DNA of 64,000 bases from assembly GCF_030253575.1 (NCBI RefSeq), contig NC_080566.1, positions 7,139,501-7,203,500 on the forward strand. Reading direction: 5' to 3'. Positions 9,039-46,401 of this stretch are shown here, piece by piece; the first letter of the stretch is position 1; the number at the start of each line of letters is the position of its first letter. Source of the stretch: Rhododendron vialii. Its lineage: Eukaryota > Streptophyta > Magnoliopsida > Ericales > Ericaceae. Below the pieces are notes generated by a model. That model was not told the DNA's origin and did no database searches. It worked only from the letters and a program-made list of their open reading frames with translations. The translations under genes were made by a program, and so were the position numbers.

Positions 9039-10952
9039 CTAAGCAGCAACACATGTGGTAGCAGCCGCAGCTTCAGACCTCATGGTAAAGAAGAGATCCA
9101 AAATATCAGCATGGTTACGAATATACGGCGGACATTTAGAAAGGAGATTGTGCGCTTCGTTATGCCTTCCAGCCTTGAGGTATGCTTCAAAGACGCGAAG
9201 AAATACAGCCGTAGATGGAACCCTCTTAACAGTCATCCCTTCCAGAAACAACCTAGCTTCATCAGCAGTTCCGGTCTTTGATAGGTAATCGATGAATGGA
9301 TCCAAGAAAGGCGGAAAACCATCAACTTTCATAAAACCCAAAAGCTCCAAAGCTTCTTTCAAACCTCCCTGAACCAATACCTTGCTAGTGAGTAACTTGT
9401 ACGTAGAATGTGAAGGCTTCAACTGTTTCTCATTGATCATATCAATCACTAGCTTGCAGGCATCCATTGCCCTATTCTTATTGCAGTATGCATTAACCAA
9501 CAATTCTTCCGCATAGGCAACACAAGGGCCGCCCTCTTTTTCAACCATCTTTTGAAAGCAATCCGAAGCTTCATCAAGGTGACCGGCAACACAATGCCCT
9601 TCAACTAAAGATGCCCATATTTTGTTATTTGAACTAGACCCAAAAGCTTCCATAGTATCCACAAACTCATTTGCTTCTTCCTTTTCCCCCTTGCTACTAA
9701 GCTGGAAGGCAATTTTACTCCTCAATGTATCACTAGGTAAGAAACCGCCTTCCTCCATAGCTTTCAAGATCTTATTGCATTCTCCAAGTCTACCAACACT
9801 AGTCAAGGACTTAAGAACTGCATCCACATTCGAATCCGTCAGCACATTCCCGCCTTCTGTAAAAGCCTGGATAACTTTCAGAACTAATTCCATGTCCAGC
9901 TCCTTATTAACCACCACTTTCCTCAAAAGAAAGGTGAAATCTTGAATTGAGGGCTTGTTGGCACCACCCATCGCAAACTCATACAAATCAACAGCATCCT
10001 TTATCATCTTCCTCTTAACAAACTGCCCCAAAACCTCAATATACGTCTCCCTCGCCATCTCAAAACCAGCGCCCCTCATTTCATCCACCAACCTCCAAAA
10101 CTTCTCAACACAATCCTCTCTCCCCAAAACCCTAACCATAGCATTATAACTGCCCTCATCATGCTCAAACAAATTGCTTTCCTGAATCCACCGAAAGAAT
10201 ATCAGCGCCTTATTCGGCTCCGATCCAAGACTCCCCAAAACCATCGAAACCAACTCACTCGAATACGAAACATTCAATTCGCGCAAACACTTCTCAACCT
10301 CACCTCCCCACACTTCTCCCCTAACCACCTTACAAACCGGCGAACACACCTTCTCAACCGAATCATCGACCGACCCACTCGCGTATATCTCTCTCAAACC
10401 CTCCACATCACTACCTAACCCTTCTCTCTCGAATCTCTTCAATGCCCTAACACTTGCGCCCTTCTTCACTCCGTACCCTTTCCTCTTCATAACCTCAACC
10501 AAATCCCAAAAGTCCTTCACACACCCATTTGAACCAAGTATACCCAGCATCCAGTTATACGATTTTGAGCTCAACCGCTCGCTCTCCCTCTCCGAAACGT
10601 ACCCGAAAAACCTCCAAGCCGCATCGGGTGCCAAACCCAGACTCTGCAAAACCCTAACCACCAAATCGTGGGTGATAACGATGTTGTTGGAGTCCAATTC
10701 GAGCTTGATCTCGTCGCTGGTTGACGACTTGGAGAAGATATCGGTCAAAACGACGACGTGGTCGGAGTCTTTGGGTTCGATTGCGAGTTCGGAAGAAGAG
10801 AAGGGGCGAAAGCTAGGGTTGTGGAAGAGGGGAGTGGAGAGGTGGCGAGGGGGAAGGGGGTGGGAGAGAGGGGGGGGGGTGGGGGGGTGGAGGTTTTTGG
10901 AGCGAGAGTGGAAGCGGAGGAGGAGGAGGAGACGCCATGGATGAGGTCTCAT
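9039..10952 (-). CDS. P-class PPR protein, mitochondrial (At3g02490/At5g15980 type)
   Basis: Intronless gene for 637 aa. PPR proteins of this class bind organelle transcripts in a sequence-specific way and affect their stability, splicing or translation. The N-terminus (MRPHPWRLLLLLRFHSRSKN) is rich in Arg, Leu and Ser with almost no acid, as in mitochondrial presequences. It is followed by a Pro-rich linker (residues about 24-45) encoded by a G-run tract on the plus strand. The rest is helical PPR-like sequence with units near SYNAMVRVLGREDCVEKFWRL, LLVNAYCNKNRAMDACKLV and STYKLLTSKVLVQGGLKEA. There is no E or DYW extension, so an editing role is unlikely. It is the only uninterrupted member of a three-copy array (decayed copies at 2430-3451 and 6304-7957). 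The assignment comes from remembered similarity; the RNA target is unknown. Confidence 0.93.
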   Translation of the reverse strand: MRPHPWRLLLLLRFHSRSKNLHPPTPPPLSHPLPPRHLSTPLFHNPSFRPFSSSELAIEPKDSDHVVVLTDIFSKSSTSDEIKLELDSNNIVITHDLVVRVLQSLGLAPDAAWRFFGYVSERESERLSSKSYNWMLGILGSNGCVKDFWDLVEVMKRKGYGVKKGASVRALKRFEREGLGSDVEGLREIYASGSVDDSVEKVCSPVCKVVRGEVWGGEVEKCLRELNVSYSSELVSMVLGSLGSEPNKALIFFRWIQESNLFEHDEGSYNAMVRVLGREDCVEKFWRLVDEMRGAGFEMARETYIEVLGQFVKRKMIKDAVDLYEFAMGGANKPSIQDFTFLLRKVVVNKELDMELVLKVIQAFTEGGNVLTDSNVDAVLKSLTSVGRLGECNKILKAMEEGGFLPSDTLRSKIAFQLSSKGEKEEANEFVDTMEAFGSSSNNKIWASLVEGHCVAGHLDEASDCFQKMVEKEGGPCVAYAEELLVNAYCNKNRAMDACKLVIDMINEKQLKPSHSTYKLLTSKVLVQGGLKEALELLGFMKVDGFPPFLDPFIDYLSKTGTADEARLFLEGMTVKRVPSTAVFLRVFEAYLKAGRHNEAHNLLSKCPPYIRNHADILDLFFTMRSEAAAATTCVAA

Positions 10953-11060
10953 GGTTTTTTCGGAATCAGAAATGGGGATCAGGGTTAGGGTTTGTGGGGA
11001 GGAGAGAGAGAGAGAGAGAGAGAGGAGAGGAGGGTGTGGTGAAGATGGGGAAGGAGGTTT
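10953..11060 (-). promoter_or_regulatory. Leader of PPR gene with GA/CT microsatellite
   Basis: Directly upstream of the PPR start codon is a (GA)n tract at about 11004-11028 (CT on the coding strand), flanked by TAGGGTTTG and TTTAGGGTTTTGG words. These AAACCCTA (telo-box-like) and CT-rich motifs are common in leaders of plant housekeeping and translation-related genes. No clear TATA box is visible. The leader boundaries are inferred. Confidence 0.45.
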
Positions 11061-11720
11061 TTAGGGTTTTGGACGGTGGGTAGTTTACACTGTTGGAGTC
11101 CAGCGGGCAGGGGGAGTGTGGACAGTGAAACTTGTGTTGCTATTGCCAGATGAAATAAAATACGGATAGCCAAAAATGTCGCGGACGCAGACATCCGTCC
11201 ACAGTTCCGGGCACAGACGTGTTTTAAATTAGTTGATGTGTGGGGACTTTTGTTTAGCGTGCATGATCTCCGTGCATCGCTTGGTTTCGCAACTAGTATC
11301 GTTTGTATTTTCGATTTCATGGTTTCGCAAGTAGTAACTTTATTTGGATCCATGCAGACACCTATGTCCATAACATTTCAAAGTGATGTACGTACACTAG
11401 CATAATTTGTTCACCCGCCTAGTACGACTCATTTTTGTGTTGAGCTCACACCACGTCTCAACTTAGTTTGCTTATTGAGTATCTCCAATGGTGGAATCTT
11501 ATTTACGTAGTTATTTGTGCAATAAAGAAAAATGGTTCAACAATAGGCCGGGTCGATTTGTGCTGGATTCAAATATTCAATCGGTAGTCTAAAATCTGGA
11601 ACTGAAGTTCTAAATTTAGACAAAACGTTATTTGAAGATACTACCAATATATAGAATTCAGTTGATTAATTAATTTTTTTTTTTTTTTTTTGAATGAGAT
11701 TAGTTAAAGAATCAAGTTTT
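11061..11720. other. Intergenic stretch upstream of PPR gene
   Basis: No gene seen. The nearer part is the likely promoter of the minus-strand PPR gene. The far end is a T-run (11676-11691) just before the retroposon target site. Confidence 0.5.
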
Positions 11721-12371
11721 AAAAATGAGTGGCTTCTCCAGAGAATGGAAGCCGGAAAGGGAGAGTCGGGTGGGTCCGCTGGCCCCTTCCCCGCCTTCCC
11801 CCTTCTTTTGGCCCCCTCCCTCACCCACTTCCTTCCTCCTCACCCCCTCAATTCTCCATCTTCGGCCTCTCTCCTCTGTTTCTCCTTTTCCTTCTCTGCT
11901 CACCTAGCTCAAGGTTGTGAGTTGGTTGAGACTATTTCTTTTGGGAGTTGAAATTTTCCACTTTTTCCTCATTTTTGGACTCAGGAATCAGATATGAGGT
12001 TCTAGATCTGATTTTTCTTGGGATCAGCGTACCAGCGACGAAGACGGCGTCTGCCTCCAATTTGCGACGGGAAGAGTTTGAGTTGGAGCGGCAGGTCATT
12101 CAGGAGGGCTTGCTCCATGTTCATACCTGGCCTCTCAACTTCGGCCTCTCCAACCCCTCCTCACGAGTGTGTTCGACGGGTCCGGCTCCGGCGTTGTAGT
12201 TCCATGCGGGTTTTTTTTTCTGTTTTCCCTGTTTTTTGTTTTTATTTTCTTTTGTTAATTTTGTATTTTAGGACCAGTAGTGTTCCCTTATTGTTCTGTG
12301 TATGTTTTAGCTGGGTTTGATATAATATTGGGATGATTTGATTTGCTCGAAGAAAAAAAAATGAGTGGCTT
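11721..12371 (+). mobile_element. Non-LTR retroposon with 15-bp target-site duplication
   Basis: The 15-bp word aaaaatgagtggctt occurs at 11721-11735 and again at 12357-12371. The second copy directly follows an A-run (12353-12360). The insert between them starts GC- and CT-rich and ends AT-rich with a T-rich 3' region, the profile of a plant LINE with its interior deleted, or a LINE-mobilised transcript. The overlapping short ORFs inside lack recognisable domains. The intact duplication suggests the insertion is fairly young. Confidence 0.8.
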
Positions 12372-12609
12372 TAATCATCAAAATGAGATCCAATATGAGC
12401 TCTACAAAAGGTGGGTAATGCTGACTCATCCCAGTTGGTTTGACAGGTGAAGTGCCGAAGGGGAACATAATTTTACAGGTAATCTCATCAGACTACTAAT
12501 CTGAGATTAATGATGTAGTAATATTTTCTTGTAGTAATATTTTCTTGTAGTAATTCTTATTCTTTCGTGGGACTTCGAATCATATCCGCGTGATACAAAT
12601 TTCAACAAA

Positions 12610-12950
12610 AAACTATGGGTACATCATTTGGTACACCAAATGTTATGGAATTTATTTCGGGGTCTCAAATTGGAGTCGTTCAATTTGTTTAAAATATTTT
12701 CAAGAAAATTCATGTTAAAATACAACTCGTACAGGTATCGACAAAGGCTTAGTCGATATTTGTTCCTGAATTTGCATTAAGAAAAATTGAATGAATTGAT
12801 TAAGCCGTCACTGATCTTTGAATGAGGTAATTTTTTTTGTAGTAATTCTTAAAATAATGTCTTAGACAAATTGAACAACTCAAATGATTAGTGTGGGATC
12901 CCGAAATTGGTCCCGGCCAATTTGTTGTACATTTGGTACACATCAACTAT
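12610..12950. mobile_element. Diverged palindromic MITE-like element
   Basis: The left part contains TACATCATTTGGTACACC and then CGGGGTCTCAAATTGG and TTCAATTTGTTT. The right part contains, in reverse complement order, ACAAATTGAACAACTC, ATCCCGAAATTGG and GTACATTTGGTACACA. The arms are imperfect, so the element is old. No target duplication was identified. Confidence 0.5.
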
Positions 12951-13257
12951 CATACTTTTTTTGCTTTACAAAAAAAAAAAAAAATTTACTTTTTTCGGGC
13001 TCTACAAATTGGGTGCTAGTCCGCTAAGCTAAAAATTCTCTCAAATTCGGCAAATGTCAATTCCTCCGTCATTTTGGCAAAACATGGGTGCGACACCTTT
13101 GCCATTTTCTTGGCAAAATGACACTATTCATTGCCTAAAAATGAGAATGGCAATGACAAAATGGCATTCATAGGTGAGGATGCTATAAAGAAACCACTTT
13201 CTATCGATGAAGCCAATTCTAAACTGGCATGCAATAGCAAGAAATTCATGTAAACTT

Positions 13258-13407
13258 TAAGTATTTGGGAAAATGACAGCCTATGACGTGTTTTGATAAT
13301 TAATACTCGTCAATGACATTTTCAACATTGACAAATATTCTTAGCTTATTCTTGACAGATATTAATTATTAAAACACGTCCTAGGCCGTCATTTTCCCTA
13401 AGTATTT
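13258..13407. mobile_element. Mutator-like MITE with 9-bp target-site duplication
   Basis: The element occupies 13267-13398 (132 bp). It starts GGGAAAATGACAGCCTATGA and ends TAGGCCGTCATTTTCCC, and the inverted arms extend about 50 bases each. The flanking 9-bp word taagtattt is repeated perfectly at 13258-13266 and 13399-13407. A 9-bp duplication with long terminal inverted repeats is typical of the MULE superfamily. It is non-autonomous, with no coding capacity. Confidence 0.85.
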
Positions 13408-14654: not shown

Positions 14655-15366
14655 TCAGTTGTTCATCCCAGTTGCATTCTTGGCTGTATCAGCAGCATCC
14701 TGCGCTTTAGCTTTCGCTTGCTCACCGGCCTACGCAAGAAATTTTCACGATCAAAATCACACATATCATCCTACACAAACCTCAGAGGTGTTGCTGGAAT
14801 TTTCTTAATCGCCGGAACCAATCATCTTGTAAGTAAATCAATATTGAAGCAACGTTAGAATACAGATTTTGTACCTGCTGCATGTTTTCTTTGGCAGACT
14901 GGGCAGCATTGCTGGCCTTATCCATCATCTGGTTTCCCTTCTCCTGGATTAATATAGATAGACAAAAAAAACATCATCTTTTGTTTATTGGCAAACTTTA
15001 AGAACTTCGTAAATAAAAGATGATGAGATTACAAAGGTTCCATTACAACTGATTTGAAAAAACACAAGATGATGTTCAGAATAAGACTAAAAACACTAAT
15101 AAAGATCATTGAACGCTACTTGCACCGAAAAGCACAAATAAAAAGGAATGCGTGGCTCAAAATTCATTCTGTTATTGTTGGCCACGAAACACCAGATTTG
15201 GATCTAAGCCTTAAGGTTCGAGTTTATGCATACTGTTCTATACAAGTCAGAGCATTTGCGAAATACTGAAACTTTTGTAATCTATAGACGTAGGAAAAGT
15301 GAAGCTCACCTCGGTCTGGCCCTTGGCCTGGCCAGCTTGGTTACTTGCCTTCTGGGAGCTGTCCAT
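14655..15366 (-). CDS. Small KIN/LEA-like stress protein, three exons
   Basis: Spliced gene, exons 15366-15310 (57 nt), 14943-14875 (69 nt) and 14729-14655 (75 nt including TGA). All junctions are GT-AG and in phase 0, giving 66 aa. The protein starts MDSSQKASNQAGQAKGQTE, continues EKGNQMMDKASNAAQSAKE and ends in a third AGEQAKAKAQDAADTAKN block, so each exon carries an Ala/Lys/Gln-rich amphipathic segment. It is very hydrophilic with no Cys or Trp, like Arabidopsis At3g02480 and KIN1/KIN2 (about 66-68 aa), cold/ABA/drought-induced proteins thought to protect membranes or proteins. Its place between a PPR gene and SAMDC is conserved in remembered Arabidopsis order. The splice sites are read from sequence; induction is inferred from family. 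Confidence 0.9.
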
Positions 15367-19530: not shown

Positions 19531-21303
19531 CTACGAGTGTAATTTCAAATGCTGTAGATATATTTGAATACTTTTCGAAATAAGGCCTCTTTCAACCGCA
19601 CGACCCCAAAAGATATCTAAGATGCCCTTGTCATCAGCATAAGAAGCACTGAAACTTCGATAAAGCTTGAGAGTTATCATTAACCGCCTCCTATACATTT
19701 CATCTAACAGATCCGAAGCAACAGTTACTTCCCCCGTTTTCAGATAAGCGTATGCTAGACTAGTATACACAACACTATCTCCTAATATTCCCTTTCCTTG
19801 CATAAGAATGAAAATCCGTTGAGCAAAATGAACCTTCTCTCTCTTACATAGCCTTCTTATTAGTGCCCTGTAAACTGAGATGTCAACGCAAAGACCTTTT
19901 CTCAAAAACTCTTCGAGCAGTCTTACAATTGCCTCTTCATTGTCTTGATTGCAGTATCCATCCACAAGCCAAGAATATATACAATAACTTGCAGAAAATC
20001 CTGCATCAAGCATTTCAAATAACAAATCTTTACCGCTGTCCATCTCCTTTGCCTTGCAAAACCCATGAATCAATGCCTTGTAAGTAAAATTATCAGGTTT
20101 CAATCCAGCCTCCAACATCTTACGTCTTACTCTCAATGCAGACTTCAAATCTCCTATCTTGCAGTAAGCATTAATCAATGTGTTACACGTGATATTATCT
20201 GGTTCAATCTTCTTTTCATTCATCTCATTTAAGAGTTTATTTGCATCCCTTATTCTACCTTGTGCACATAACTTGCGGAGAATCGAATTATAAGTGACAA
20301 CACCAGGATACAATCCTTTAGTCTCCATTTCCGCACGCAATCGTACAGCTTCATCCATGTCATTCACTCTGCAATACCCATCAATTAGGGTAGTGTATGT
20401 CACATGATTAGGGACAGCACCTTTAATATCCTTAAAAAGCCTTGAAGCCTCTCTCATTCTACCTTCTCTACAATACCCATAAATAAGAGAATTATACGTC
20501 ACAATATCGGGACACACTCCCCCTTGTTCCATTCTATCTTGAATTGACAAAGATTGATAGTGCATACCCTTCTTGCAATACAAAGAGATCAACGTGTTAT
20601 AAGTGAAAAGATCCGGAAACATACCCGCAAGCTCCATTTCACTCAACAACTGTTCTGCCTTTTCAACATCTCCAGACTTGCAACAAGCATGGATCAACAC
20701 GTTGAACACATGCATATTAGCCACAACCCCGATTTTCACCATTTTCTTGTATATTTTCCACACCATATCAGTCAACCCATCCTTCACCAATGAATTCAAA
20801 AGCACAGTACAAGCATGCAAATGAGGCTTAAACCCATTAACTCTCATGTGTTCAAACACTTGAATTGCATTTTGGGTCATCTTCAAATTAGCGTAAACTA
20901 TCACCAACCAGCTCAAAACTTGCGAGTTCGAATCTGGGTCATCACCATTTCCCGTAAGCGAATTCAAAACCGTTGGAGACGACAGGAAATCCCGTAAAGC
21001 AATCTTTTCAAGCATGTTTTGTGCAGTTTTGTAGTGTTTTTGCTTAGTGAGGATGTGAATCATAGCCCAAGAAGACTGTAGAGAGTGCTTGTAACTTGGA
21101 ATTGATTCAACCCACTTGAAAAATGACCAAGAAAGAGAGGACCCATCTAAGGGAAGGCACAGAAGTACTTGGTTAATGATTGTTGAGGTGAGACTAGACC
21201 CAATTTTGGGCTTCAAAAGATTGTCCCAGTGTCCCTTCACAACAATTGCACACACGATTTTGACAAATTGGGTTTCATTGGTTAGAGAAACTAAGCTAGC
21301 CAT
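19531..21303 (-). CDS. P-class PPR protein (At5g38730 type)
   Basis: Intronless gene for 590 aa if started at the Met at 21303. An upstream in-frame Met at 21345 would add 14 residues (MFLPIRLGQF...), but remembered At5g38730 aligns from the second Met (MASLVSLTNE), so I prefer it. After about 130 residues, tandem 35-residue PPR motifs fill the protein, for example VVTYNSILRKLCAQGRIRDA, ITCNTLINAYCKIGDLKSAL and FTYKALIHGFCKAKEMDSG. There is no E or DYW domain. These proteins bind organelle RNA; the target is unknown. Similarity continues from start to stop (usual length about 596 aa), so the gene looks intact. It lies between the LEA gene and SAMDC, all on the minus strand. Confidence 0.94.
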   Translation of the reverse strand: MASLVSLTNETQFVKIVCAIVVKGHWDNLLKPKIGSSLTSTIINQVLLCLPLDGSSLSWSFFKWVESIPSYKHSLQSSWAMIHILTKQKHYKTAQNMLEKIALRDFLSSPTVLNSLTGNGDDPDSNSQVLSWLVIVYANLKMTQNAIQVFEHMRVNGFKPHLHACTVLLNSLVKDGLTDMVWKIYKKMVKIGVVANMHVFNVLIHACCKSGDVEKAEQLLSEMELAGMFPDLFTYNTLISLYCKKGMHYQSLSIQDRMEQGGVCPDIVTYNSLIYGYCREGRMREASRLFKDIKGAVPNHVTYTTLIDGYCRVNDMDEAVRLRAEMETKGLYPGVVTYNSILRKLCAQGRIRDANKLLNEMNEKKIEPDNITCNTLINAYCKIGDLKSALRVRRKMLEAGLKPDNFTYKALIHGFCKAKEMDSGKDLLFEMLDAGFSASYCIYSWLVDGYCNQDNEEAIVRLLEEFLRKGLCVDISVYRALIRRLCKREKVHFAQRIFILMQGKGILGDSVVYTSLAYAYLKTGEVTVASDLLDEMYRRRLMITLKLYRSFSASYADDKGILDIFWGRAVERGLISKSIQIYLQHLKLHS

Positions 21304-21345
21304 CGAGTATGTTATGAACTGTCCAAGCCTAATTGGAAGGAACAA

Positions 21346-23363: not shown

Positions 23364-24196
23364 ATGATCAAACAAGAAAACTATTCCTTACTCCGTTACA
23401 GTACCACAATTCCTCGATACGAGCTGTAGAGTTTGGAAACAAAATTGCAGTAAGGAACACAAATACTTTTTAAACAAGCTTGGTAACCTACCTACATCGA
23501 GAAGGGCATCAAAAACCTGCAATGGACAATGTCAAGCCGACAAGTCCTCCTTAGGCACTAGGCAATGGTCCAAATGCCTGATTAGACAACTGGCTAGTCG
23601 GCACCTAGGTGCCCTTTATCCGCCCGGCTAGCTCATAGTGATTTTCACAACATTGGCCATTTCATATTGCCCCAAAAACTATGAGTTCACGAACAGTCAA
23701 ATCAGCTCAGAGCTAACATCATGATTCATGAAGCCAAAGCAACATAGTAGCAAGCCCCATTTACACCTAGAGAACTACCAGTTATGAACAAATATACAGG
23801 TGCTCTGCACTAGCTGTGTCAATATAATATACAGGTGCTCTGCACTAGCTGTGTCAATATCACACAATAGCTTCTGCTCCCAGAAAAAGAGCGCTTTCAA
23901 TAAATAACAGTATGATAAGCGAACAATAGTATAACCACCTCGGGAAATAAGTTGATGGTTCAACACCTTAAAGCCATCAGAAAAGCCATTACAGATCCAA
24001 GACCAGATTCCACAACTGTCGTCCACGAATAAAGACGACTAGGGCACCAACACCCAATAAAGAAATAACGGACTAATGGGGGCCTAATGGAGCGACAAAA
24101 ATACCATTTATTGTGCTCCGACTCATGAAAGAAAAGACAATAACAAACAAATTCAAGCAAAAAATGGAGAAAGACAACAATATTTCTGATTCATTT
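23364..24196. other. Stretch holding SAMDC 3' UTR
   Basis: No gene seen. A 35-base segment is tandemly repeated at about 23794-23828 and 23829-23863 (both containing ATACAGGTGCTCTGCACTAG). The part next to 24197 is expected to be the SAMDC 3' UTR. Confidence 0.5.
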
Positions 24197-25279
24197 CTAC
24201 TTCTTCTCAACTTTCTCGTCTTCGTCGCTCTCACTCCAACAGCTATGCAGAGTTGACCTAGGAGATCCACAGCCACCATACTTGGTAAAGCTGTAGTAAA
24301 CAACAGACCCTCCTTTTCCAAGCACCTCATGACTCTTCTCTCCACAGAAATATCCCTTCAAATCCAGATCCACACCAGAACCAAGTTCTTTGCCAGCATC
24401 AGAGCTCAAAGCAATAGAAAACTCATTCGGCTGGAAGCAAGCCAACACCCTCTCAATCAAGTTGTTCAAATTCACAACCTTCAAATCATATCCCACTGCT
24501 TCAAAACTAGCGTAACTGAATCCATCTTCCGGGGTGACATGAATTGTGGAAACTGCGCTCCCCTCAATAGCATTCATGGAGTAGCCACAAGGATCGAATT
24601 CAAAGTCGCAAATATTAGAGTTGGGAAGAATCTTCCTGATCCCAGAGTTATCAGTCATTGAAGTAGCAGAGCTTCCGTCGGTCTTGTAAAAGACAGATGC
24701 CTTATCCTTGTCCAAAGTGGTCATACACATTTCGAGAGTGTAAACTGGGTCCAAATCATTGGTGGATTCAGCCGAAGCAGCGTAGACATGCCATTTCTGT
24801 GGTTCATCATCACCACCCATCACGTAAGCCTTGCTACCAAACCCAAGCCTTCCAAAATGGCTATCGAGGACGGATACTTCTTCAGAGAAGTTGCGATGAG
24901 GAAAAGGCTGGGCCCCAGGACAGATAAAGCTTCCACGAGTGTACCTCACAGATTTCACAGAAAGGGAGAGCATATCGGCAAACTTCAAGATGGATGGGAT
25001 AGAGAGTAGCAGTTTTGTAGTCCCGCAAGTTTTGATGATGATTTTGTAAGCGTACACAAACAGGCTAGATTCAGAAAGGACATAAGAGTCAACTTCATCA
25101 TTTGACAGTGAGCTGACAATGGTGCATTCAGCAAGAGTTAAAAATTCATCCAATTGCGATTTGGATAAAGAGCGGAGGCCCCTGCCTCCAGGGTCAGAAA
25201 AGATCCCAGGTTCAATGAACGATATCTCAAGTCTCTTTTCATATCCTTCAAATCCAATAGCAGAAACTGACAAGGCCAT
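24197..25279 (-). CDS. SAMDC: S-adenosylmethionine decarboxylase proenzyme
   Basis: Intronless main ORF of 360 aa. The enzyme decarboxylates S-adenosylmethionine to supply the aminopropyl donor for spermidine and spermine synthesis in the cytosol. Autocleavage is expected between Glu70 and Ser71 in LSESSLF, with Ser71 becoming the pyruvoyl cofactor. The FEGYEKRLE motif (Glu11, Glu14) and Cys85 in KTCGTTK match the catalytic residues of the family. The PEST-like [16 protein letters not shown] segment typical of plant enzymes is present, and the acidic tail ends [12 protein letters not shown]. The length is usual for plants. Translation is expected to be polyamine-controlled through the two uORFs just upstream (stop of the small uORF is 135 nt before this ATG). 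Confidence 0.98.
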
Positions 25280-25414: not shown

Positions 25415-25690
25415 TCAGGATGGCTTGCGCGCGCACTGCAAAACATTCCAACCGTAGGATGGAGGTAGCATTTTAGAACATAGGAACAAAGAATTATTTA
25501 TTGCGCATCAAGTTACACGATGCTGTATGATACAAAAGTTAGAAGTTGAACTTACGTTGGAATAAGCAGCAGATCTGAACTTCTTGATTCCACCAGCGGG
25601 TCGAACGTCTTCAATGCTGTAACCTAGGGGAGCTTCATAAAACAAGGATTTACTACTGCTAGACTTCTTTTTCCCACCTTTAGTCTCCAT
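25415..25690 (-). CDS. Conserved small uORF of SAMDC mRNA (spliced, 51 codons)
   Basis: The leader peptide is encoded in two exons: 25690-25556 (45 codons, beginning METKGGKKKSSSSKS and ending FRSAAYSN) and 25435-25415 (CARKPS then TGA). The intron 25555-25436 is GT-AG (GTAAGT...TTTTGCAG) and in phase 0. The 51-residue peptide is almost the conserved plant AdoMetDC uORF peptide, including YEAPLGYSIEDVRP and the C-terminal xRKPS. It is known from other plants to stall ribosomes when polyamines are high and so repress the main ORF. The ATG is fixed by its one-base overlap with the tiny uORF. Confidence 0.97.
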
Positions 25691-25698
25691 TAGATCAT
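25690..25698 (-). promoter_or_regulatory. Tiny uORF (ATG ATC TAA) overlapping the small uORF
   Basis: On the coding strand the leader reads ATGATCTAATGG. The tiny frame is Met-Ile-stop, and the last A of its TAA is the A of the small uORF ATG. This one-base overlap is the arrangement described for plant SAMDC mRNAs, where the tiny uORF at low polyamine limits translation of the inhibitory small uORF. Confidence 0.93.
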
Positions 25699-29183: not shown

Positions 29184-29577
29184 AGTACTAAAAGACCAGT
29201 CTACCCATACAGACAAAAGGGTACAGATTGTGCACAGATTTTTTGTGGGTCCCATACAAATGATCCGAGCCGTTCATTAAATGTAAAACACTTTTTCAAG
29301 GGTCTCTATGAAAAATCAGCTCAATCCGATACATATAAGTTTTCGACCTTATTATTTAACTTTTCATTGAGATTTTGAGAAAGTGAAAAGTTAAATAATT
29401 GGATCAAGCACCTATAAGTATCGTATTAAGCTGATTTTTCTTAAAAACCCTTGAAAAACTGTTTTACATTTAATGAACGGCTTGGATGGTTTGTGTAGAA
29501 TCCGTAGTGGGCCCCGCAAAAAATTTTGTGCACAATCTGTGCATGTAATATCTGTGTGGACAGATTTTCTGGTACTA
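29184..29577. mobile_element. Long palindromic MITE, family 1 (older copy)
   Basis: The arms include CAGATTGTGCACAGATTTT and GAGCCGTTCATTAAATG on the left, with their complements on the right, so almost the whole element folds back. It shares these arms with 33792-34157, which defines a family. The outer ends here carry AGTAC...GTACT. It is more diverged than the sister copy and noncoding. Confidence 0.8.
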
Positions 29578-32470: not shown

Positions 32471-33300
32471 CTTTTTTTTTTTTTTAACCACGGAAAGAGA
32501 GAAGAATTTATTAACGAAGAAACTGGTCAAAGGACCGAACATCATCCAATGCAAGATTAGCTAGCCAACGGGGGACAGAAAACCACCCCCCCCCCCCCCC
32601 CCCCCCCCCCCCAAACCAAGTTTTATAGTCTAATCCCTAATAGGGAATGCTTAACCAACAAATGGACTATTCTATTACAAGAACGATTAACATGCACGAA
32701 AGTACAAGAGGAAAATAAAGGCAAAAGAACTAAGCAATCCAAGAGAATAGAACTACAATCCGCAAAAGATTTTTCTGCTTGAGTAAGTGCTTGAACAACT
32801 TGGAAAGAATCACCCTCCACAACAATCTTTGAAAGGCCTCTATTAGCTGCAAAGACCAAAACTTTTCGAAAGGCCATGGCCTCAACAGCTCTTGGGCATG
32901 GTGCAACATTTTGGCAGGAAGGGCCATTCTTAGAAAGGGCTGGAGATGGAACGCGGGGATGGTTCTTCCATTATGTTTGGCGCGATCCCTGGCTTCCGAG
33001 GTCTCTCTCTTTTAAAATGCTAAGTCCTCCCCCACCAGCCGCTTCCCCCCTTAGTCACATTCACCATGTCTCGGATCTTATCGATAGCACTTCCCATAGC
33101 TGAAATGTTTCATTGCTTAAGGAGCTTTTTTTGGAATATGATGATGTGGAGTCAATCCTCTTGATTCCAATCGGTTCACAAGGCTGCGGATATAGGGGTT
33201 TATGGTACTCTACAAAGCAATGGGTCCTTTTTGGTAAAGTTGGCTTATCGTTTGGCAAAAAAAAGCAACCTTCCACGACAGTCTCGAGAACGCGGTGAGT
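32471..33300. mobile_element. 5'-inverted (twin-primed-like) LINE fragment
   Basis: The minus-strand part 32922-32471 encodes the end of an RNase H-like (RVT_3) domain, with AMAFRKVLVFAANRGLSKIV, VEGDSFQVVQAL and NRSCNRIVHLLVKHSL, and finishes in an A-run (T-run on plus, 32471-32485). Directly beside it, 32925-33300 encodes on the plus strand the upstream region of the same type of element (WRDPWLPRSLSFK, LLKELFLEYDDVESILLIPI and a zf-RVT-proximal part), broken by stops. Opposite orientations abutting at one point with a single poly(A) are the signature of twin priming during LINE insertion. No target duplication found. Confidence 0.7.
32586..32612. repeat. Poly(C) tract of 27 bases
   Basis: An uninterrupted C-run lies within the 3' part of the LINE fragment. 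It is unusual for an AT-rich plant intergenic region and a likely place for assembly or length error. Confidence 0.85.
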
Positions 33301-33791: not shown

Positions 33792-34157
33792 CTACATACA
33801 CAGCAGATCTGTGCACAGATTTTGTTGTGGGGCCCACCACAAGTCCCACACAAATCATCCGAGCCGTTCATTAAATGTAAAACATTTTTTCAAGGGTCCC
33901 CGTAAAAAATAAGCTCAATCCGATACCAATAGGTGCTTCATCCAACCATTTAACTTTTCATTCAGATTTTCGGATAATGAAAAGTTATATGGTTGGATCG
34001 AGCACCTATAGGTATTGGATTGAGCTTATTTTATATGGGGACATTTGAAAAAATGTTTTACATTTAATGAACGGCTCGGATGATTTGTGTGGGACCCGTG
34101 GTGGGCCCCACAACAAAATCTGTGCACAATCTGTGCACAGATCTGCTGTGTGTGTAG
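33792..34157. mobile_element. Long palindromic MITE, family 1 (younger copy)
   Basis: The ends are CTACATACACAGCAGATCTG and CAGATCTGCTGTGTGTGTAG. Arms of more than 150 bases each are almost perfectly complementary, including GTGGGGCCCACC, GAGCCGTTCATTAAATG and TCCAACCATTTAACTTTTC segments. It shares the arms with 29184-29577. It sits 13 bp from the Harbinger MITE. The flanks do not show a clear duplication. Confidence 0.85.
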
Positions 34158-34386
34158 ACTTTCTGCTTAATTTCCTTCTCTATTCCTTCTTATTATAATC
34201 ACATTCTCTTCTTTTCCCAAGTTCCAAACAGAGCATAAGTGAACCCTAACTATATATATATATTGCTGCGGCCTCTAATCGCCCTAGAAGGGGGAAGCTG
34301 AATGGTAGAACTGCCAGAGAGAAGAGAGTTGTCGGCCCAGGAAGATTGAATCGGCGGAGCGGCGGCGGCGACAGGAGAACGCGTGT

Positions 34387-34500
34387 GGACACGAAAATAC
34401 TGATGAAAAGGGGAAAACGATCATGATGTTTATTACCCCTTTCCAATCGCTTAAATATAGTTTTCAATCTGAATCCTTCTCTCTGTTGCCGCTGCCGCCG

Positions 34501-34538
<38 letters not shown>

Positions 34539-35145
34539 GACAATCATCTACTCTCTCTCTCTCTCTGTTCCGTTCCGCAATCGCTCCCCCGGACCCCGTG
34601 ATGTTCACCTCTGAGGGTTCAATCTCTCTCCCTCACTTGAGATTCTTCAATGACCCTGCTGCGTAAATTTGAGCTTGAATCTGAACGACACACACAGTTT
34701 AGTACTGAACCATTCGTGCTCAACTTTGCCCCAGAGGCTGGTGTGTGGTTCTTGCTCAACCTTGCTCCAGGGCATTCGATGTCTTCCCCTCTCACACAGT
34801 TTCTTTTGTTTTTTTGTTTGCGTTAGCTCTATGTGGAATTATTTTTTCCCCCGATTTCAGAATCTGAAGTACTGAGATGGAATTCTGGAGTTTTATTACC
34901 GACTTTGATTTTCTTTCGGTTGGACTCCCCCCCCACCCCACACCACCCAAAAAAAAAAAAAAGAAAAAGAAAAAGAAAAAGAAAAAAGGAGAACTTTAAA
35001 AATCAAGAGTTATTAGATTTTTGTTAGTTCAAATTAACAGAAGTCATTGATACTTACTACTAGTAGTAAGTAGCAGCAAAAAACTTTGATTTTTGTTTGT
35101 AAAAGATTTTAAGGTTCTCGTAGTGGACCAGACAATCTCTTTGGG
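34387..35145 (+). repeat. Direct duplication, copy 1
   Basis: Matches 39604-40318 in the same orientation over most of its length. Shared landmarks are GTGGACACGAAAATACTGAT at the start, a CT then CA microsatellite, CAATCGCTCCCCCGGACCC, GACACACACAGTTTAGTACT and TTTTTGTTTGTAAA near the end. It looks like a leader/first-exon region (CT-rich, then mixed GC). The short ORFs in it are not conserved in frame between the copies. This copy also has C- and A-rich expansions near 34927-34990. Confidence 0.8.
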
Positions 35146-36466: not shown

Positions 36467-39449
36467 GTTGATATTGCTGCTGGAGGATGGCATTCTACTG
36501 CCCTGACGAATGATGGAGAGGTATTTCCTTCCTTCTAATTCCGAAGAGATTTCGGTAATAGTAATTGCAATGTCGTTGTACTTGTACTTCACTCCTTCGT
36601 TAGGTATCTGAACACTTTTGTCAATAGTAGAACACTTGCCTAAAACCCAAAACCTTTTACCCTACCATATCTTCAATATGGGCACCCAGCAATACATCAT
36701 TATTTGTGTTCGAAATCGAGTAGTGGCCTAGGATCTACAATGTCTCCTTGGCAGCTAAAAGTAGTATATCCAATTATTACTCATTGATATTTTTCTTTGT
36801 TTTCACCTGTCGTTTTTTCTACTAGCGTTTAAGGTGTATTATTCCAAATAGTTGAGGAACCTTTATGACATGGAAGAGTTGTTTTGGATTTTTGTATGTG
36901 ATTCCCCTTCACTTCAAGAAGCAGACATGGTTTACTTGTCTGGTAAACTATAGGATTATGTCATATATGTTTCTTCAAGATATGAAAGTTTGAAATATGA
37001 AATAACCTTTTAAAACTTTGAAATCTATATGGAAAATTTTATTTCTGTTTGTTTGCTGAAGGTTCTGCGGTTAAACTCAACAAGCTAACCTTAAGGTTGT
37101 GGGTTCGAAATCTGATGACAGTTGTTTGGTGCATATAAGGTCAATTTATAGGTTGGTGCTTGATCTAACCCTCCGTGTCCCCTTAATGGGGACAAATTGG
37201 GTGAAATTCTTTCATTGGAATAAGCAAAGTAGAATGAACTCATCGACCCTCATAGATGAGGCTTTTGAAAAGAAATAGGAGTAATACTTTAATTCACTCC
37301 TTATTGGTCATGATTTGCATGTGAAGAATGGTTTGGTCAAAACAAATCAGATTGCAACTGCGGGCGGATTCATTGAAATTTGTTAGTTGCATCCCTAGAA
37401 CTCTGAGTGTGGTGTTCTCCGTCATCCAGGGATTTGAAAGGAAAAGATGAAATGGCAATTGTTCTTGTCTCGCTATTATATGATGTCTGCTTTTTGTAGG
37501 GGACACGGTTTTCATTTTTTGGTCTTCATTGCAGGTATATGGTTGGGGTAGAGGAGAACATGGGAGGCTTGGATTTGGAAATGATAAGAGCAGTATAATG
37601 GTGCCTCAGATGGTTCAACTTCTCGTAGAGGAAGATATTATTCAGGTACATATACGTTCTCTACTAGGATCAGTGAACGTGTTTGTCTTCTCCCGCATGT
37701 GATGGTACAAATGTATTGTTTAGGATGTTTTCTAATTGTGGAAAAGAATCATCGTGATTCTAGTCATGCCAATGGTGATTGAGTTGGGAATGGAGTCGTT
37801 GCTTAGATCTTAAAATTATTGCATGTGGTTTGCAGAAATTGGTTTCGCTGCGGTTTGATATGGATTTACTTTTATTTTCCCTGTTCTCTTTTTGCTTTTG
37901 AATATAGTTCTTGTGCCTGGTGAAGGAGTTGGGATGAACAATCAGCCCTTGTTCATGTTTTAGAACTGGCCCCCTACTCCTTGCTTCTAGGGGCACTGAT
38001 CGCTCTATAGTTCACGAACTGCAGTTTTTTGGAATATCATTTTGCACAGGGCTTTCATTTGAATTTACTTTTTTTTGGGTGAGATGCAATATCTATTAAG
38101 CTCGAACAAACAAAATCCAAGGCCTAAGCCATTACAAAGCCGGACCCAACTAGCTACAAAGACCTATAGGCCCTTGTTGGAGCAAATACCAAAAGAAAAG
38201 TCAAATATGGGATTCCAGATTGAGAGAATGATGTCGGAATACTAATAAGATCAGAAAGGTATTTGAAGAGTTAGAAGTACTAATGAACAGAGCAATTCAC
38301 TTTGATTCAAAAATTCTAGATTCATTTTATTCTCCAGGCGCACTGCCCTTTCCCTCAGGAGCGAGCAAGACTATCTTGGTGAATCCCTTCACTCTCCAAA
38401 AAACGAGATAGATTCCACTTGACCTCCATCTGCTTTTTTTTTTCCCGCTTGAAGCTATCTCACAATTTGGATTCAACTGATTTTCCCCGTATTTTTCATT
38501 AAACTAACTCACTTATGGCAGTTTCTCCGTGGGATTGGATGAAGTACATAGAGTTGGGCCAGAATAGCCAAAGAACTAAGATAAAAAACAAATCCGGAGT
38601 CCAGACGGCTTGTGCTGGTTGGAAGTAAGAAAAGGGATTCTAGAAAGCAAAGTGAAAGGAATGGCGGAACTACCGAGCAGAGTCAAAAATACAAAACAAA
38701 GACACAGACTAAACTGAAAAAATTCTAGGGGGAATCCATTCTTAACTAGAAGGAAGTCCTATTTAACTCATTCTTACTTTTTCAGTATTAGGAAAGGATA
38801 GATGAATGTTCTTTCGGCAATTTTTGGGCCAGAGCAGAAGAAGCCTACATCCCTATTGAAAGGTGTTCGTTCCGTACCATGCTACACCAAAAGAGAACGA
38901 AACCCACTACTTTGAACATTCAATCACCTGAGTTCTTAAATTTTTCACATTTTGATGCTTATTACTGCTATTTTTATTCGTGATATAGGTGTCCTGTGGG
39001 GGTACCCATTCAGTTGCATTGACACGTGATGGCCGCATGTTTTTGGTAAGCGCTGGGACTTCATGTTTTACATTTCATGATAGCTGCAAGTTGAAATAAA
39101 TAAGATGGACAGCTCACCACATGGTCACTGAAACAAAATTGTGACAATACAAGCATGGGTTCGGTACCAACAACTTTTTATCTGGACCTTGCTTTTTGTG
39201 TTTTTCTAGTAAATCTTGGTATCACCAAAGAAACTCTTTTGCTTTTTTCTTACGGTATTCCTAATTGACTGATAAGATTTGGTGTTGACGGTTTGGCCGA
39301 GGTGACCATGGGAGTAGTGGTCATCCCTCGGAGGTGCCCATAAACCTCCCACCACCAAAAAATCTCAGCGGGGGTGGTGAGCAGAGCTTGTTGCTTGTGG
39401 TGGCCGTCACACATTAGCAATAGTAGAATTGCATCCTGATGAATCTTAA
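36467..39449 (+). pseudogene. 5'-truncated RCC1/UVR8-like gene (At5g16040/At3g02510 type)
   Basis: Four exon remnants encode the C-terminal RCC1 blades. Exon 36467-36520 (18 codons) encodes VDIAAGGWHSTALTNDGE, 37535-37645 (37 codons) encodes VYGWGRGEHGRLGFGNDKSS and on to EEDIIQ, 38989-39045 encodes VSCGGTHSVALTRDGRMF, and about 39290-39449 encodes FGRGDHG, HPSEVPINLPPPKN and GGRHTLAIVELHPDES-stop. The first three have good GT-AG boundaries. The last has lost residues after FGRGDHG and needs a frame change before GGRHTLAIV, so it is broken. All N-terminal blades are absent. A LINE tail lies in the intron near 38070. RCC1-fold proteins are seven-bladed propellers; this relic could not fold as one. 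Confidence 0.88.
38070..38400 (-). mobile_element. 5'-truncated LINE, 3' end in RCC1 intron
   Basis: On the minus strand the sequence reads GAGCTTAATAGATATTGCAT, then CTCACCC and an A-run (T-run on plus at about 38070-38077), a common ending of plant LINEs. No coding domain remains. The 5' limit and target duplication were not found; the inserted DNA may reach about 38900. Confidence 0.45.
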
Positions 39450-39603
39450 AAGATCAAGATCAATATATTCAGAGCTTTGTATAACTGTGTCATGTTCATC
39501 GGAGAATTGAATGTCTATTGATTTTCTATTCACACATTCTACATTCTCCTGCAATTATGAAGCACAATAATTGCCGGAGAATTCTCTATTTATGCATGAA
39601 ATT

Positions 39604-39693
39604 GTGGACACGAAAATACTGATGGAAGGGGAAAATGATTGTGACGTTTATTACCCCTTTCTAATCGCATGAATATAGTTTTCAGTCTGAATC

Positions 39694-39754
<61 letters not shown>

Positions 39755-40318
39755 GACACACAATCATCTAATCTACTCTCTCTCTCCCCCTCTGTTTTCC
39801 ACAATCGCTCCCCCGGACCCTGTGATGTTCACCTTTGAGGGTTCAATCTTCCCCATCCCCCCTCTCTCTCGATCGAAATTCTTCAATGCTGTTGGGGTAA
39901 AGTTGAGCTTGAATCTGAACGACACACACAGTTTAGTACTAAACCGTCCGTGCTCAACCTTGCCCCAGAGGTTGGTATGTATTTGTGTGGGCCAGATTTT
40001 TGCTCAACCTTGCTCCTGGGCATTCACTCCTCAAACACAGTTTCTTCGTTTTTCTGTTAACGTTAGCTCTATGTGGAGTTATTCTGGAGTTTTATTTTTG
40101 ACTTTGATATACTTTCGGTTGGACTCTTCTTTACATACTCACAGTGCTTTGAATAATATATGATTACTCTCAAAATATATTTTTATCAAGAGATACTAGA
40201 TTTTTGTTAGGACAAATTAACAGTAGTCATTGATACAGTAGCAGCAAAAAAAATTTGATTTTTGTTTGTAAAGATTTTAGGTTCTTGTTGCGGACCGAAC
40301 ACTCGATCTCTTTGAAAG
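39604..40318 (+). repeat. Direct duplication, copy 2
   Basis: Second copy of 34387-35145 with the CT/CA microsatellite (about 39693-39755). A long ORF through it (39669-40163) is mostly low-complexity Ser-Leu from the CT tract and is not maintained in copy 1, so I do not call it a gene. It immediately precedes the GH3 fragment. Confidence 0.8.
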
Positions 40319-40465
40319 GATTAACCGTGTGTATGATGTTTTAATGATTTTAGAACCAAGTTATCATAGGATATGAGATACTATAACTTTTGTTCTAGCT
40401 TTCAAGATGCTCTTCAGTACTTGATCTTATGTTAATTTTCACCGGTTTCCACTTTGTCTATGTAG

Positions 40466-40930
40466 AAACAAGATCACGGCATGTGCTAAGCACTATTTGG
40501 GTGATGGAGGGACAACCGATGGAATCAACGAAAACAACACCGTTATAAGCAGGCAAGGATTGCGGAGCATCCACATGCCAGCTTATCTTAATGCGATTGT
40601 CAAGGGCGTATCAACCGTAATGATCTCCTACTCGAGCTGGAACGGACTAAAAATGCATGCCGATCATTAACTTATCACTGGTTACCTCAAGAACAAACTA
40701 CGTTTCAGGGTACATAAACGAATTATTGAGGAAGAAATAAATGTTTTTTTTTTGTGTGTGTGTTCTTCTATCAAAAAATATTGTGAACAGGTAACTAAAG
40801 TTAGGTATGAATCGACAAATTATTTCAGGGATTTGTCATCTCTCGGATTGGCAAGGACTTGATCGGATCACAAGTCCACCGCACGCTAACTATACATTCT
40901 GGACTGTGGCATACACATGGTTGGTCCTTA
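40466..40930 (+). pseudogene. Broken GH3 beta-glucosidase fragment
   Basis: Exon 40466-40709 encodes [35 protein letters not shown] and [13 protein letters not shown], the signature of plant GH3 beta-D-glucan exohydrolases. It has an in-frame TAA at 40668-40670 and then LITGYLKNKLRFR up to a donor. The next exon starts at 40829 (GFVIS) and needs a two-base frame correction at 40844-40845 to continue DWQGLDRITSPPHANY, which includes the nucleophile Asp region (ISDW). Upstream and downstream exons are absent. Two disabling lesions and the truncation make it a dead fragment; the family normally degrades cell-wall beta-glucans. Confidence 0.88.
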
Positions 40931-41249
40931 CCAAAGTAATCTTTCAGAAAGCCTTGTTAATTCCGATGAAGTGAAGAATCTCAAATGGTCCACTTTATCG
41001 AACTTGCGTCGTGAAATATAACTTGTGAATTAATCGCACTTGGATTTCTACTCTTAAAAAGAATAAGAAATAGATTTCTTTTGGTGCTTTAGAATGTAGA
41101 GAAGAAGAAATAGTCAGTTCTTACTTAAAATGGGATGAACCAGTGGTGAGCTAACTCCCATTTGGTTTGCATTGCTTTTGAAAGTAGTTTACCAAGCAAG
41201 CTGATTTGTGTAAACCAAATGGGCCCCAAGCTCACCGTTCTGATTCCTT

Positions 41250-41994: not shown

Positions 41995-42540
41995 AGTTAT
42001 CCTTCCTCTTCCCAGATTAGGAATCTAATAGTGAATGTTTTTTTTTTCGCTCTCTTCTTTTCTCTCTCTTTAGGAATACATTTTAAACTTGATGAGCCGT
42101 CTATTTCTCTTGAGGAATCGTTAGAAATCATTCCAAACTTAACGAGTGGGTTAGATGTAAATTTCAGAAAACTTGAAACAAGATAAAAGGATTTGAATCG
42201 AAAGAGGCATGAATTATGAGAGTTTACCTACACCTTTAGGGTAAGAAAAGCAAGGCAAAAATTGCAAAAGAAAAAATGATTTGAAGAGGACATATTTTTT
42301 CCTTCCTCTCCAAATTAGGAATCGATGAAGAAATGTTCTTCACTCTATTTTGGAAAAATTAATTATAAATTATTCCAAACTTGACAAGTGGTTTATTTTC
42401 TCTTTAGGAATCGTTAGAAATCATTTCAAATATGATCAGCTGTCTAAATGTAAATTTCAGAAAACTTGAAACAAAAGAAAATGATTTGAATCAAAAGATG
42501 CATGAATTATGAGAGTAATTTTGTTCACCTACAGTTTTAC
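41995..42540 (+). repeat. Diverged tandem duplication (period about 300 bp)
   Basis: Bases 41995-42240 and 42295-42540 share, in order, CCTTCCTCTxCC, GGAATCGTTAGAAATCATT, ATGTAAATTTCAGAAAACTT and GCATGAATTATGAGAGT. The copies differ by many substitutions and small indels. No gene in either. Confidence 0.75.
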
Positions 42541-42997
42541 CATTGCATTTAAATAAGAAAAATGTGAAAAGTTTGGCTCAGCTCGTTTGCGCTGCTATGA
42601 TCCTAAGCACTCATCCTCCACAAACATGTCACAAAAGGATGAAATCAAATGACAACAACAAAACTGCGATTAACTTTATAACAAAAGGTTGTGGTAAATC
42701 CACAACTAAAAAGAGTTTGTTTCCATGCTCATTCGATCACCACCGTACACATCCGGAGACATGGAAGGAATGAGCGGTTTTAAAGATGCACGCACGCAAG
42801 CAGCGTTCACGTTAGTGCAGCATCACAATCTGGAAACAGAGACATGCACCAAGTACCTTTTGGGATGCACATTCACTAAACAAGAGAAAACAAACAAAAA
42901 ACCTACTAAGAGCCTTTTTTCTTTTCTTTTGGATACCAAAATTCTGATTTGTGAAGTCTGACTGGTTCACTGAAGTTGCCTTCTCTCTCGGTCCGCC
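42541..42997. other. Probable ProDH 3' UTR region
   Basis: Downstream of the ProDH stop on the minus strand. No separate gene is supported; short plus-strand ORFs here look incidental. Confidence 0.45.
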
Positions 42998-45900
42998 TCA
43001 CAGAATTGCAGCTTTCAGTCTCCTCTTCAACTCCTTCCTGCAACCAGAGGAGAAATAAACAGTTAAAAACCATTCACTAACTAGAAAATTCACATGTATA
43101 CAATGGCGGACACAAGGGGGTGCCGGGGTGCACAACTTCAAATATCCTCACATATTATACTAGTTTTCCAGGTTACTTTTGAAAAGTTCTATGCGATTGA
43201 CCCTGCAAGTCCTTCGGTGAAAATTGTTCTTTAAAATTCCTGTGTGTGTGTCAAGTATCCCTAAATTCCAAGTTATCAATCATTTTTAGGTCGCGTGTAC
43301 AAAATTAAGCAGCGGCTTTGCGCATAGACACAATCTCATCTCTTCCTTCGACCTCACAAGTAGTAGCATAAACTTATGGAATATATATGTTGTTATCAGC
43401 ATGGAAATACATGTGTTTGGGGCCCTTGCTAGACGCAAATCCTGCGTCCACTACTGTATGTATAGAATCCTGTGTCTTTATACTTCTTTTTCGTCATCAC
43501 TCATATGAATTTACAACGTTGTCCTTTCAATTGTTTGCTCACTCACGCATGAAAATATTCTATTCTAAAGTTCGCGTGAATATAGAAAAAAAAGTGCATT
43601 GCAGTTTGCAGAAATCAACACGAACTTATACATGCATTTCTCATTTTATACCTCATAAGGTATCTGTCAAGGGTTGATGTAGATAAGAGTCCCCTATTCT
43701 CTTCAGCTCTCCTCAGAAGGTAAGGCATAACAAGCTCCACAGGTCCGAAAGGCATGTATTTACTGACTTGAAACCCTGCATTTTTCAAACCAAATGAAAG
43801 CCCATCTGCCATGCCATACAGTTGAGCAAATTGGAGCTTCTGGTTTCCATTTTGGATACCCAAATCCCGTGCTTTCGCAGCCGCTTTGTTTCCTATCATC
43901 CAACATAGCTTATGCATCAAACCAATGCCTCACCAAGCTGTAAGAATGAAAAGATCAAAAGGCATACTGCTACGGACTCAAAATACGTTCATAAGAAAGT
44001 ATTCGACCAGCGGTCCCCATTTAAAATAAAAGCAACCCCCATTTAAAATAAAAGCAACGGTACCAAAATCAATATAGTACTTTTCAAAACTAAAAGGTCT
44101 GCATTGTTTTCTATTCAAGATTTACCTGATTTAGTATTAGGGTTCAAAAGGTATAAAATGATATGAACGAAAAATAATTTCATTACTAGTTTGCTCTTGC
44201 CATAGACTGTAGATTCCATTTCGATGAATGCAGCGGTACCAACACTATTTTCGAATAAATGCAACGTTTGCATTTGTTTTCCGTTGGAAATTTACCTGAA
44301 TCCATGTTGTGAGTCGCAATGATCACCGCGCCAGAGCCACTAGCAATCTTCTCAAGCATGAAAGAGGTGCAGTCATTAAAGCAAGCGTGCGTTTGATCAA
44401 TAGTATTGTGGATTGGGGACTCAACACCTAGGGAAGTAGCCAAATGTCTTTCGCTCGACATATAAGCTCCCCTCACCAACTTGAACCCCATTGGCACTCC
44501 CATTTTCTCAGCAGCATTTGCTGATATGATCAACCTCTCCTTCGCGTCTGTCAAGTAAGTTTGAATCGTCCCGTAAATGATTGGGTTATCCCCCACATTG
44601 TACATCAGAGCCGATGAGTACGTGAAGTAGTCTATCCCGGGTTGAACAGAGGTGTCCTCCGCATCGATTGTTAGAGGCACATTGGCTTCAATGCAGCTTT
44701 GGCAGATTTTGAGCATCCTTTGTTGAGCTAAGTGGAGATCGGTCTCTTCTTCTACAGTCAGAGGGTCTGGTTTGCTCGGCGTGTGGTAAAAAGGGCTTGA
44801 ATCGGCGAAAATTGGAAGAGTGTTGAGCTTCCATGGAAGTTGGAAAGACTCATTGTTGTATTCCCATCTCAATAGATCACTTACTCGCTTGAGTAATCCG
44901 AGGGGGCAAATGGCAGTGATCTTCACCACAACAAAGCTAACCTGTTCATAGACAATAACCCATTTTTCATAGGTCAAAAATCTGAAATTAAGTATCAATC
45001 TAATCTACTATTTATTTTTTGTAGGAAATGTGTGAAACTAGTGTCAAACTAATCTCACCACCGCAGCTAATTTTCTGTTTAAATTTTCTCGATATACAAT
45101 TCTCAAAGTATAAGAAAATGTAAATCCGAAGTGCACCTACGAAGTAGGGGAGTACGCAGTTATCAATTTAATCACTTGCCTTTCGTTCTTTTTTTGCGTT
45201 ACATTGGAGAGTGAAAAATCTTTGATGGACGATCTTCATATTTCAAAAAAAAAAATTGTGGATTTTGTCTCCCCACCAAATTTCACCATTTTTGGGTGAA
45301 GAACCAAGTAAGAACTTGAACACCACACCTTGCGCGATTGGTTTAGGTCCGCAGTTCGAGTTAGGTGCTCAGCTTCTGTTTCAACCACTGACACTCCCAC
45401 GGTCACTCCACTATCCTACCGTCTAAAAAAAAACAAATATGAATTTTCCCTGTTGTTCATTTCTTACCAAATCACTATGTTCTAACTCAAATACGAAATT
45501 ATTCAGTTAAAAAAATGTCATCTCTCCCATAAGAAAGCAAAAACAACAAAACCCAACTGGAAAATTACAGCGAAATTATTCAGTAGTCTGGGATCCACAA
45601 CCACACATTCTAGTGGGACAGTAATACTTTGGTGACCACATTTGACTACTACATTTTGGATTTGACTACTACATTTTGGATACCATACGATGTGTCATCG
45701 ATGCAGCGGGGATTCTGGTGAATAATTACTCAAAATTACATGCAGAAAAAGGCAAAGCACCAAAAAAACAGAGGAGAGAGAGAAAAATTTCATCAATCCA
45801 AGTAATGAACAAAAAGTGGGTTGCTCTGTTCTATTAAAAAGCTTACAGAGGAGGTGGGAAGCGACTTGGCCGATTCAACCGTCTCTAGAAACCCTTCCAA

Positions 45901-46401
45901 ATTCCGATCACACGACTCGTTATCAGAGGCGTGTTCCAAGGCATAAACCAGCATCCCTTTCAACCCGGAATCCCAAATCCTCGCCGCCGTCCTAGCCGCC
46001 TCCGCGGGGCCTGGGCCGGCGCAGAATTGATCGTAGAAAGTGTGTTTGATCGTCCCCACCGTCGCCTCGCGCAGCAACGGCGTGCGCATGAGCTTGGAGT
46101 TCATGACCCACATGCCCAGGTCGATCATCGGCTCGACGGCCGCCGCGTGGAGGTTGACCGCCGACCGGAGGAGCTTACCGGTGGAGACGGAAGAGAAGAG
46201 CCCCTTTACGTCATCCACGTCGAGAATCGCGGTGGTAGGAGATGGGTGGTCAACGGCGGTGGGATGAGGAGCCTTAAGGAATTGGTGGAGATTGAGAGGA
46301 GAGACGGTGGCGGTGATGGAGGAGTGGGCCGCGGAGTAGTGTGGCTTGGCGAAGGGACGGAGTCTTTGGATGATCTTTGGACATGCAACTCGGTGGGCCA
46401 T
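42998..46401 (-). CDS. ProDH: Proline dehydrogenase, mitochondrial
   Basis: Four exons: 46401-45847, 44941-44296, 43892-43652 and 43037-42998. All are GT-AG with compatible phases and join into 493 aa (family about 490-500). It oxidises proline to pyrroline-5-carboxylate with FAD at the inner mitochondrial membrane. The N-terminus MAHRVACPKIIQRLRPFAKP suits a presequence. Exon 2 holds LTIDAEDT (about residue 278), KLVRGAYMSSE (about 340) and ATHN (about 394). Exon 3 holds FAQLYGMADGLSFGL, YMPFGPVELVMPYLLRRAEE and NRG, the substrate/FAD end of the barrel. Exon 4 adds KELKRRLKAAIL. Intron 1 is 905 bp. No lesion is visible. The upstream bZIP-type elements fit known ProDH regulation. Neighbouring PPR (19.5 kb) suggests kinship with the At5g38710 locus. 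Confidence 0.96.

Follow-up and report, generated by a model that had tools for sequence, protein, structure and literature searches.

The question raised by this locus is whether a row of five genes lying side by side is an old neighbourhood that has since been split in Arabidopsis, or a joining of once separate segments. In the window (the whole stretch of 64,000 nucleotides that was analysed), the minus strand carries, from left to right, a PPR gene (PPR-A), a KIN/LEA-type gene, a second PPR gene (PPR-B), SAMDC and ProDH; all five frames are open and, judged from the sequence, the genes look intact. On the plus strand a relic of an RCC1 gene lies between SAMDC and ProDH (Table 1). The first four genes are spaced by 3.7, 4.2 and 2.9 kb, and the distance from SAMDC (upstream ORFs included, to 25698) to ProDH is 17.3 kb. 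The genes were located by open reading frames, Pfam and protein probes, and were found in the order that an earlier note on this DNA had stated; by its gene content the window is probably nuclear DNA of a flowering plant. Six-frame Pfam scans covered 11.4-19.4, 26-34, 34-43 and 46.4-61.4 kb, and the remaining window was covered by ORF lists and probes; no RNA families above the gathering score and no tRNA genes were detected.

The row is most likely an old neighbourhood since split in Arabidopsis. In the reading that we prefer, and to which we assign a probability of about 0.7, it is a block of conserved microsynteny: the linkage would predate the split from tomato, fractionation in Arabidopsis would have followed, and the gap between SAMDC and ProDH would be a later insertion zone. 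The gene row requires no common function, the individual roles of its members being those of a mitoribosome protein, a stress protein, an RNA-binding protein, an enzyme of polyamine synthesis under uORF control and an enzyme of proline breakdown.

Table 1. Positions of the features in the window.
Feature	Position	Strand	Remarks
PPR-A	9039..10952	-	open 637-aa frame with PPR repeats; mS81/rPPR8 (AT5G15980) type, as predicted by homology
Decayed tandem copy of PPR-A	6307..7957	-	stops and frame-breaking indels
Second tandem copy of PPR-A	2473..3427	-	decayed further; located by probe and repeat comparison
KIN/LEA-type gene	14655..15366	-	exons 15366-15310, 14943-14875, 14729-14655; 66 aa
PPR-B	19531..21303	-	open PPR gene; Pfam PPR match
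SAMDC main ORF	24197..25279	-	360 aa; Pfam E 8.1e-114
SAMDC uORFs	25415..25698	-	tiny uORF from 25698; 51-aa leader, 25690-25556 and 25435-25415
RVT_3 relic	32647-32895		Pfam match; coordinates derived by hand
Direct repeat, left copy	34384..35143	+	CT-rich; 72% identical to right copy; flanks RCC1 relic
RCC1 relic	36467..39440	+	3' half only, intron-bearing; stops; last piece with deletion and frame change
Direct repeat, right copy	39603..40314	+	CT-rich; flanks RCC1 relic
Glycosyl hydrolase family 3 (GH3) relic	40440..40896	+	two exon pieces with in-frame stop; adjoins RCC1 relic
ProDH	42998..46401	-	exons 46401-45847, 44941-44296, 43892-43652, 43037-42998

The start of PPR-B was set by hand at its first ATG, the listed ORF opening with TTG at 21345. 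PPR-B is a candidate for the At5g38730 type proposed in the earlier note; among the matches listed, the name At5g38730 was not found in the literature. The assignment of the KIN/LEA-type gene is provisional and rests on an At3g02480-type probe, since its product reached no Pfam family cut-off. This probe matched the gene in three collinear pieces of 28.9-31.6 bits, compared to a maximum of 20.0 bits in 20 windows resampled by a first-order Markov chain.

The best PDB match of PPR-A was mS81 (rPPR8; 9gyt_g, E 2.5e-179) over query residues 49-632. This match is near full-length and far above those to other PPR structures, the second-best having an E-value of 1.5e-41. In PMC6953067, mS81 (rPPR8), a protein of the mitoribosome small subunit, is listed as AT5G15980. 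The At5g15980-type label that the earlier note had attached to PPR-A is thus borne out independently, and the gene's predicted identity as the mS81/rPPR8 type of mitoribosome small-subunit protein is confirmed. The region from 1 to 10952 is a tandem triplet of one open and two decayed copies of this gene, and nucleotide identities for the decayed copies are about 78-81% and 69-78% in the aligned parts.

SAMDC matched chain A of 1mhm with an E-value of 5.4e-124. Its leader, which is interrupted by one intron, covers positions 1-51 of the 51 in AdoMetDC_leader (PF08132; E 9e-34); the tiny uORF consists of 9 bases (two codons and a stop) and overlaps the leader ORF by 1 base. With both the leader and the overlapping tiny uORF present, the gene is predicted to carry a leader of the polyamine-responsive type. 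In AtSAMDC1 the two ORFs lie at 691-702 and 702-865, and the tiny uORF has 12 bases in both AtSAMDC1 and AtSAMDC2 (PMC5745906). The window's gene resembles AtSAMDC1 and AtSAMDC2 in its full-length leader and in the 1-base overlap with the tiny uORF, but differs from both in the length of the latter, 9 instead of 12 bases. Just downstream of SAMDC, at 23791-23860, there is a perfect tandem repeat of two 35-base copies.

ProDH is complete, with four exons, three GT-AG introns and a product of 493 aa that is open throughout and matches positions 2-274 of the 278 in the Pro_dh profile (E 2.9e-64). In the flank beyond it, no Pfam match above the cut-off was found in six frames between 46.4 and 61.4 kb. 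Apart from the relics in Table 1, the sole further match listed in the Pfam scans was to RsmF_methylt_CI in this flank (E 0.0004); at 20.8 bits it fell short of its cut-off of 27 and was taken as chance. Interspersed repeats occupy 49199-50315, 53479-54643, 48584-49573 and 61532-62531, and the first two of these are probably a recent pair, since they are 94% identical. At 51439-51738 on the minus strand, two in-frame pieces split by a stop resemble a small coiled protein; its best matches, HetE-N (E 0.039, below the cut-off) and Tektin-2 (E 0.53), were not significant. A weak zf-RVT match on the plus strand at 58991-59326 (E 0.0023, below the cut-off) is probably a LINE remnant.

The window differs from Arabidopsis in where ProDH lies. 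The two Arabidopsis segments At3g02470-02490 and At5g15950-15980 are without ProDH alongside SAMDC, and ProDH2 lies elsewhere by locus number, as At5g38710, with the PPR gene At5g38730 as its neighbour. At3g02490 is presumably a PPR gene as well, and we know of no second PPR gene between KIN and SAMDC in either segment. At3g02470 and At5g15950 are SAMDC1 and SAMDC2 (PMC5745906), and At3g02480 and At5g15960 (KIN1) are listed as a homeologous pair (PMC2292704). SAMDC, a LEA/KIN gene and the mS81-type PPR gene are close to one another by locus number in both segments, as they are close in the window. Grape has a SAMDC locus, VIT_11s0037g00940, in the grape papers examined; a grape ProDH locus was not found in the same papers, which says nothing for or against collinearity in grape.

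The independent comparison was with tomato, where locus numbers in published papers were taken as order; the comparison covers gene order. KIN1/KIN2 domains are assigned to Solyc02g089570 and Solyc02g089580, and to two further genes on chromosome 2 (PMC9731513). SlSAMDC2 is Solyc02g089610 and its leader peptide is 089615 (PMC8230097); the same locus, 089610, appears under arginine and proline metabolism, the enzyme being left without a name (PMC5511834). SlPDH1 (Solyc02g089620) and SlPDH2 (Solyc02g089630) form a tandem pair on chromosome 2 at 49418488-49424545 (PMC12558507); both loci are named ProDH in PMC10243938, and the former also in PMC11354283. The next locus, Solyc02g089640, is a cellulose-synthase-like C-type (CSLC) gene (PMC8230097), and Solyc02g089590 and Solyc02g089600, between KIN and SAMDC, were not named in the literature found. 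Going by these locus numbers, the tomato order is KIN, KIN, two other loci, SAMDC2 with its leader, and ProDH, which is that of the window.

The proximity of SAMDC and ProDH in tomato indicates, on these locus numbers, that their linkage is not peculiar to the window's genome; the nearby KIN genes are less telling, because at least four KIN-domain genes are reported on tomato chromosome 2. The match as established covers KIN, SAMDC and ProDH; the papers found gave no tomato position for PPR-A or PPR-B, of which the latter might lie at Solyc02g089590 or Solyc02g089600. Two differences were also observed: tomato has two tandem ProDH genes followed by CSLC, whereas the window has a single ProDH, and Pfam detected no CSLC counterpart in the 46.4-61.4 kb past it. 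The earlier note had proposed that the window keeps an arrangement that Arabidopsis split; the KIN-SAMDC-ProDH order, found also in the tomato loci Solyc02g089570-089630, is the part of that proposal that is supported, and the membership of RCC1 is a part that is not.

Since the tomato order matches that of the window, the joined state is most simply read as the older one, and Arabidopsis probably split the KIN-SAMDC-ProDH linkage. As a single comparison lineage, tomato, was readable, the polarity, with the joined state ancestral and not derived, is what we infer from it. If the window's plant is closely related to tomato, the two would not be independent witnesses, and the joined state could be the derived one: a PPR-KIN-SAMDC segment and a PPR-ProDH segment would have come together in an ancestor common to both, and Arabidopsis, whose segments are compact by locus number, would show the older state. 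We regard such a fusion as rather unlikely. It would have to leave PPR-B between KIN and SAMDC even though, if it is of the At5g38730 type, this gene would have arrived with ProDH; differential loss of duplicates, on the other hand, gives two partial sets without any extra rearrangement. In the preferred reading, the linkage would be older than the split of the window's lineage from tomato, and Arabidopsis would have lost it by fractionation after its genome duplications, one duplicate set keeping SAMDC, LEA and PPR and another keeping ProDH2 and its PPR neighbour.

The part of the row that departs from this picture is the RCC1 relic, which the earlier note had counted as a sixth member of an unfractionated row. 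The relic was identified with an At5g16040-type protein probe, from which its putative sub-type is taken. The best score of this probe was 66.6 bits, while 20 windows that were resampled so as to preserve base-to-base transitions reached 25.8 bits at most, and Pfam recognised RCC1 with an E-value of 1.3e-7, above the curated cut-off. Four fragments (36467-36526, 37532-37696, 38980-39057 and 39292-39440) are collinear with the C-terminal half of the probe. At the threshold shown, its first 250 residues match these same fragments, as expected of a repeat protein, and no other place. Pieces 1-3 are flanked by AG and GT, whereas no AG precedes piece 4, in which sequence is missing and the frame is lost. 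The collinearity of the pieces and the AG/GT boundaries of the first three show genomic DNA to be the source, and the relic is a truncated pseudogene copied in that form.

The surroundings of the relic are of a similar kind. Direct repeats, the GH3 relic, the RVT_3 relic and other repeats surround it, so that the gap between SAMDC and ProDH looks like an insertion zone; in the preferred reading, these 17 kb would have been filled later with remnants of transposons and with pieces of RCC1 and GH3 genes. The evidence did not establish the direct repeats, with their 72% identity, as LTRs; the relic may have been captured by a transposon or may stem from a local duplication. Inverted repeats within 33.9-41.3 kb marked no clear element ends. 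A MITE-like element of about 350 bases is present at 29224-29571 and 33804-34165, its copies matching in both orientations.

One possible explanation for the relic is that it is a decayed ancestral neighbour still in its place, as the full six-gene row would have it. Its collinear pieces, the first three of them AG/GT-bounded, would fit a genomic source of this kind, and RCC1 genes, At5g16040 and At3g02510, are found within a few genes of both Arabidopsis SAMDC segments. Its position is at odds with such an origin: SAMDC separates the relic from KIN and PPR-A, and ProDH follows it, whereas the Arabidopsis numbers of the earlier note place RCC1 beyond the PPR gene. It also consists of a 3' half only, amid direct repeats on both sides and an adjoining GH3 fragment. 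We therefore consider an ancestral neighbour in place improbable. The relic is better read as debris of the insertion zone and is not to be counted among the collinear genes; the presence of its family near the row in Arabidopsis could reflect local duplication. The six-gene unfractionated version is accordingly too strong, and what recurs in tomato is the linkage of KIN, SAMDC and ProDH.

An additional scenario is that the linkage has been maintained for its function, SAMDC (polyamines), ProDH (proline) and KIN being kept together by shared stress control. The three families are all stress-linked, and their linkage is also seen in tomato. Arabidopsis, however, does without the linkage; SAMDC and ProDH are 17 kb apart in the window, with relics and repeats between them, and the row also includes the mitoribosome-type PPR-A and a second PPR gene. 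A functional cluster of this kind is hardly credible, and its looser form, a metabolic and stress cluster that common stress control would have kept in place in several eudicot lineages and that Brassicaceae would have broken up, is scarcely less improbable.

Taken together, the phenomenon is a routine one, conserved microsynteny combined with fractionation in particular lineages. A description of exactly this linkage was not found in the literature, which was searched mostly by locus number. The RCC1 relic carries a caution, in that a fragment of a gene whose family lies near the row in Arabidopsis may be wrongly counted as one of the collinear genes. The locus itself may link the Arabidopsis SAMDC-LEA-mS81 duplicates with the ProDH2 neighbourhood, and would be of use in work on ancestral gene order and wherever orthologues of ProDH and SAMDC are to be named from their position.
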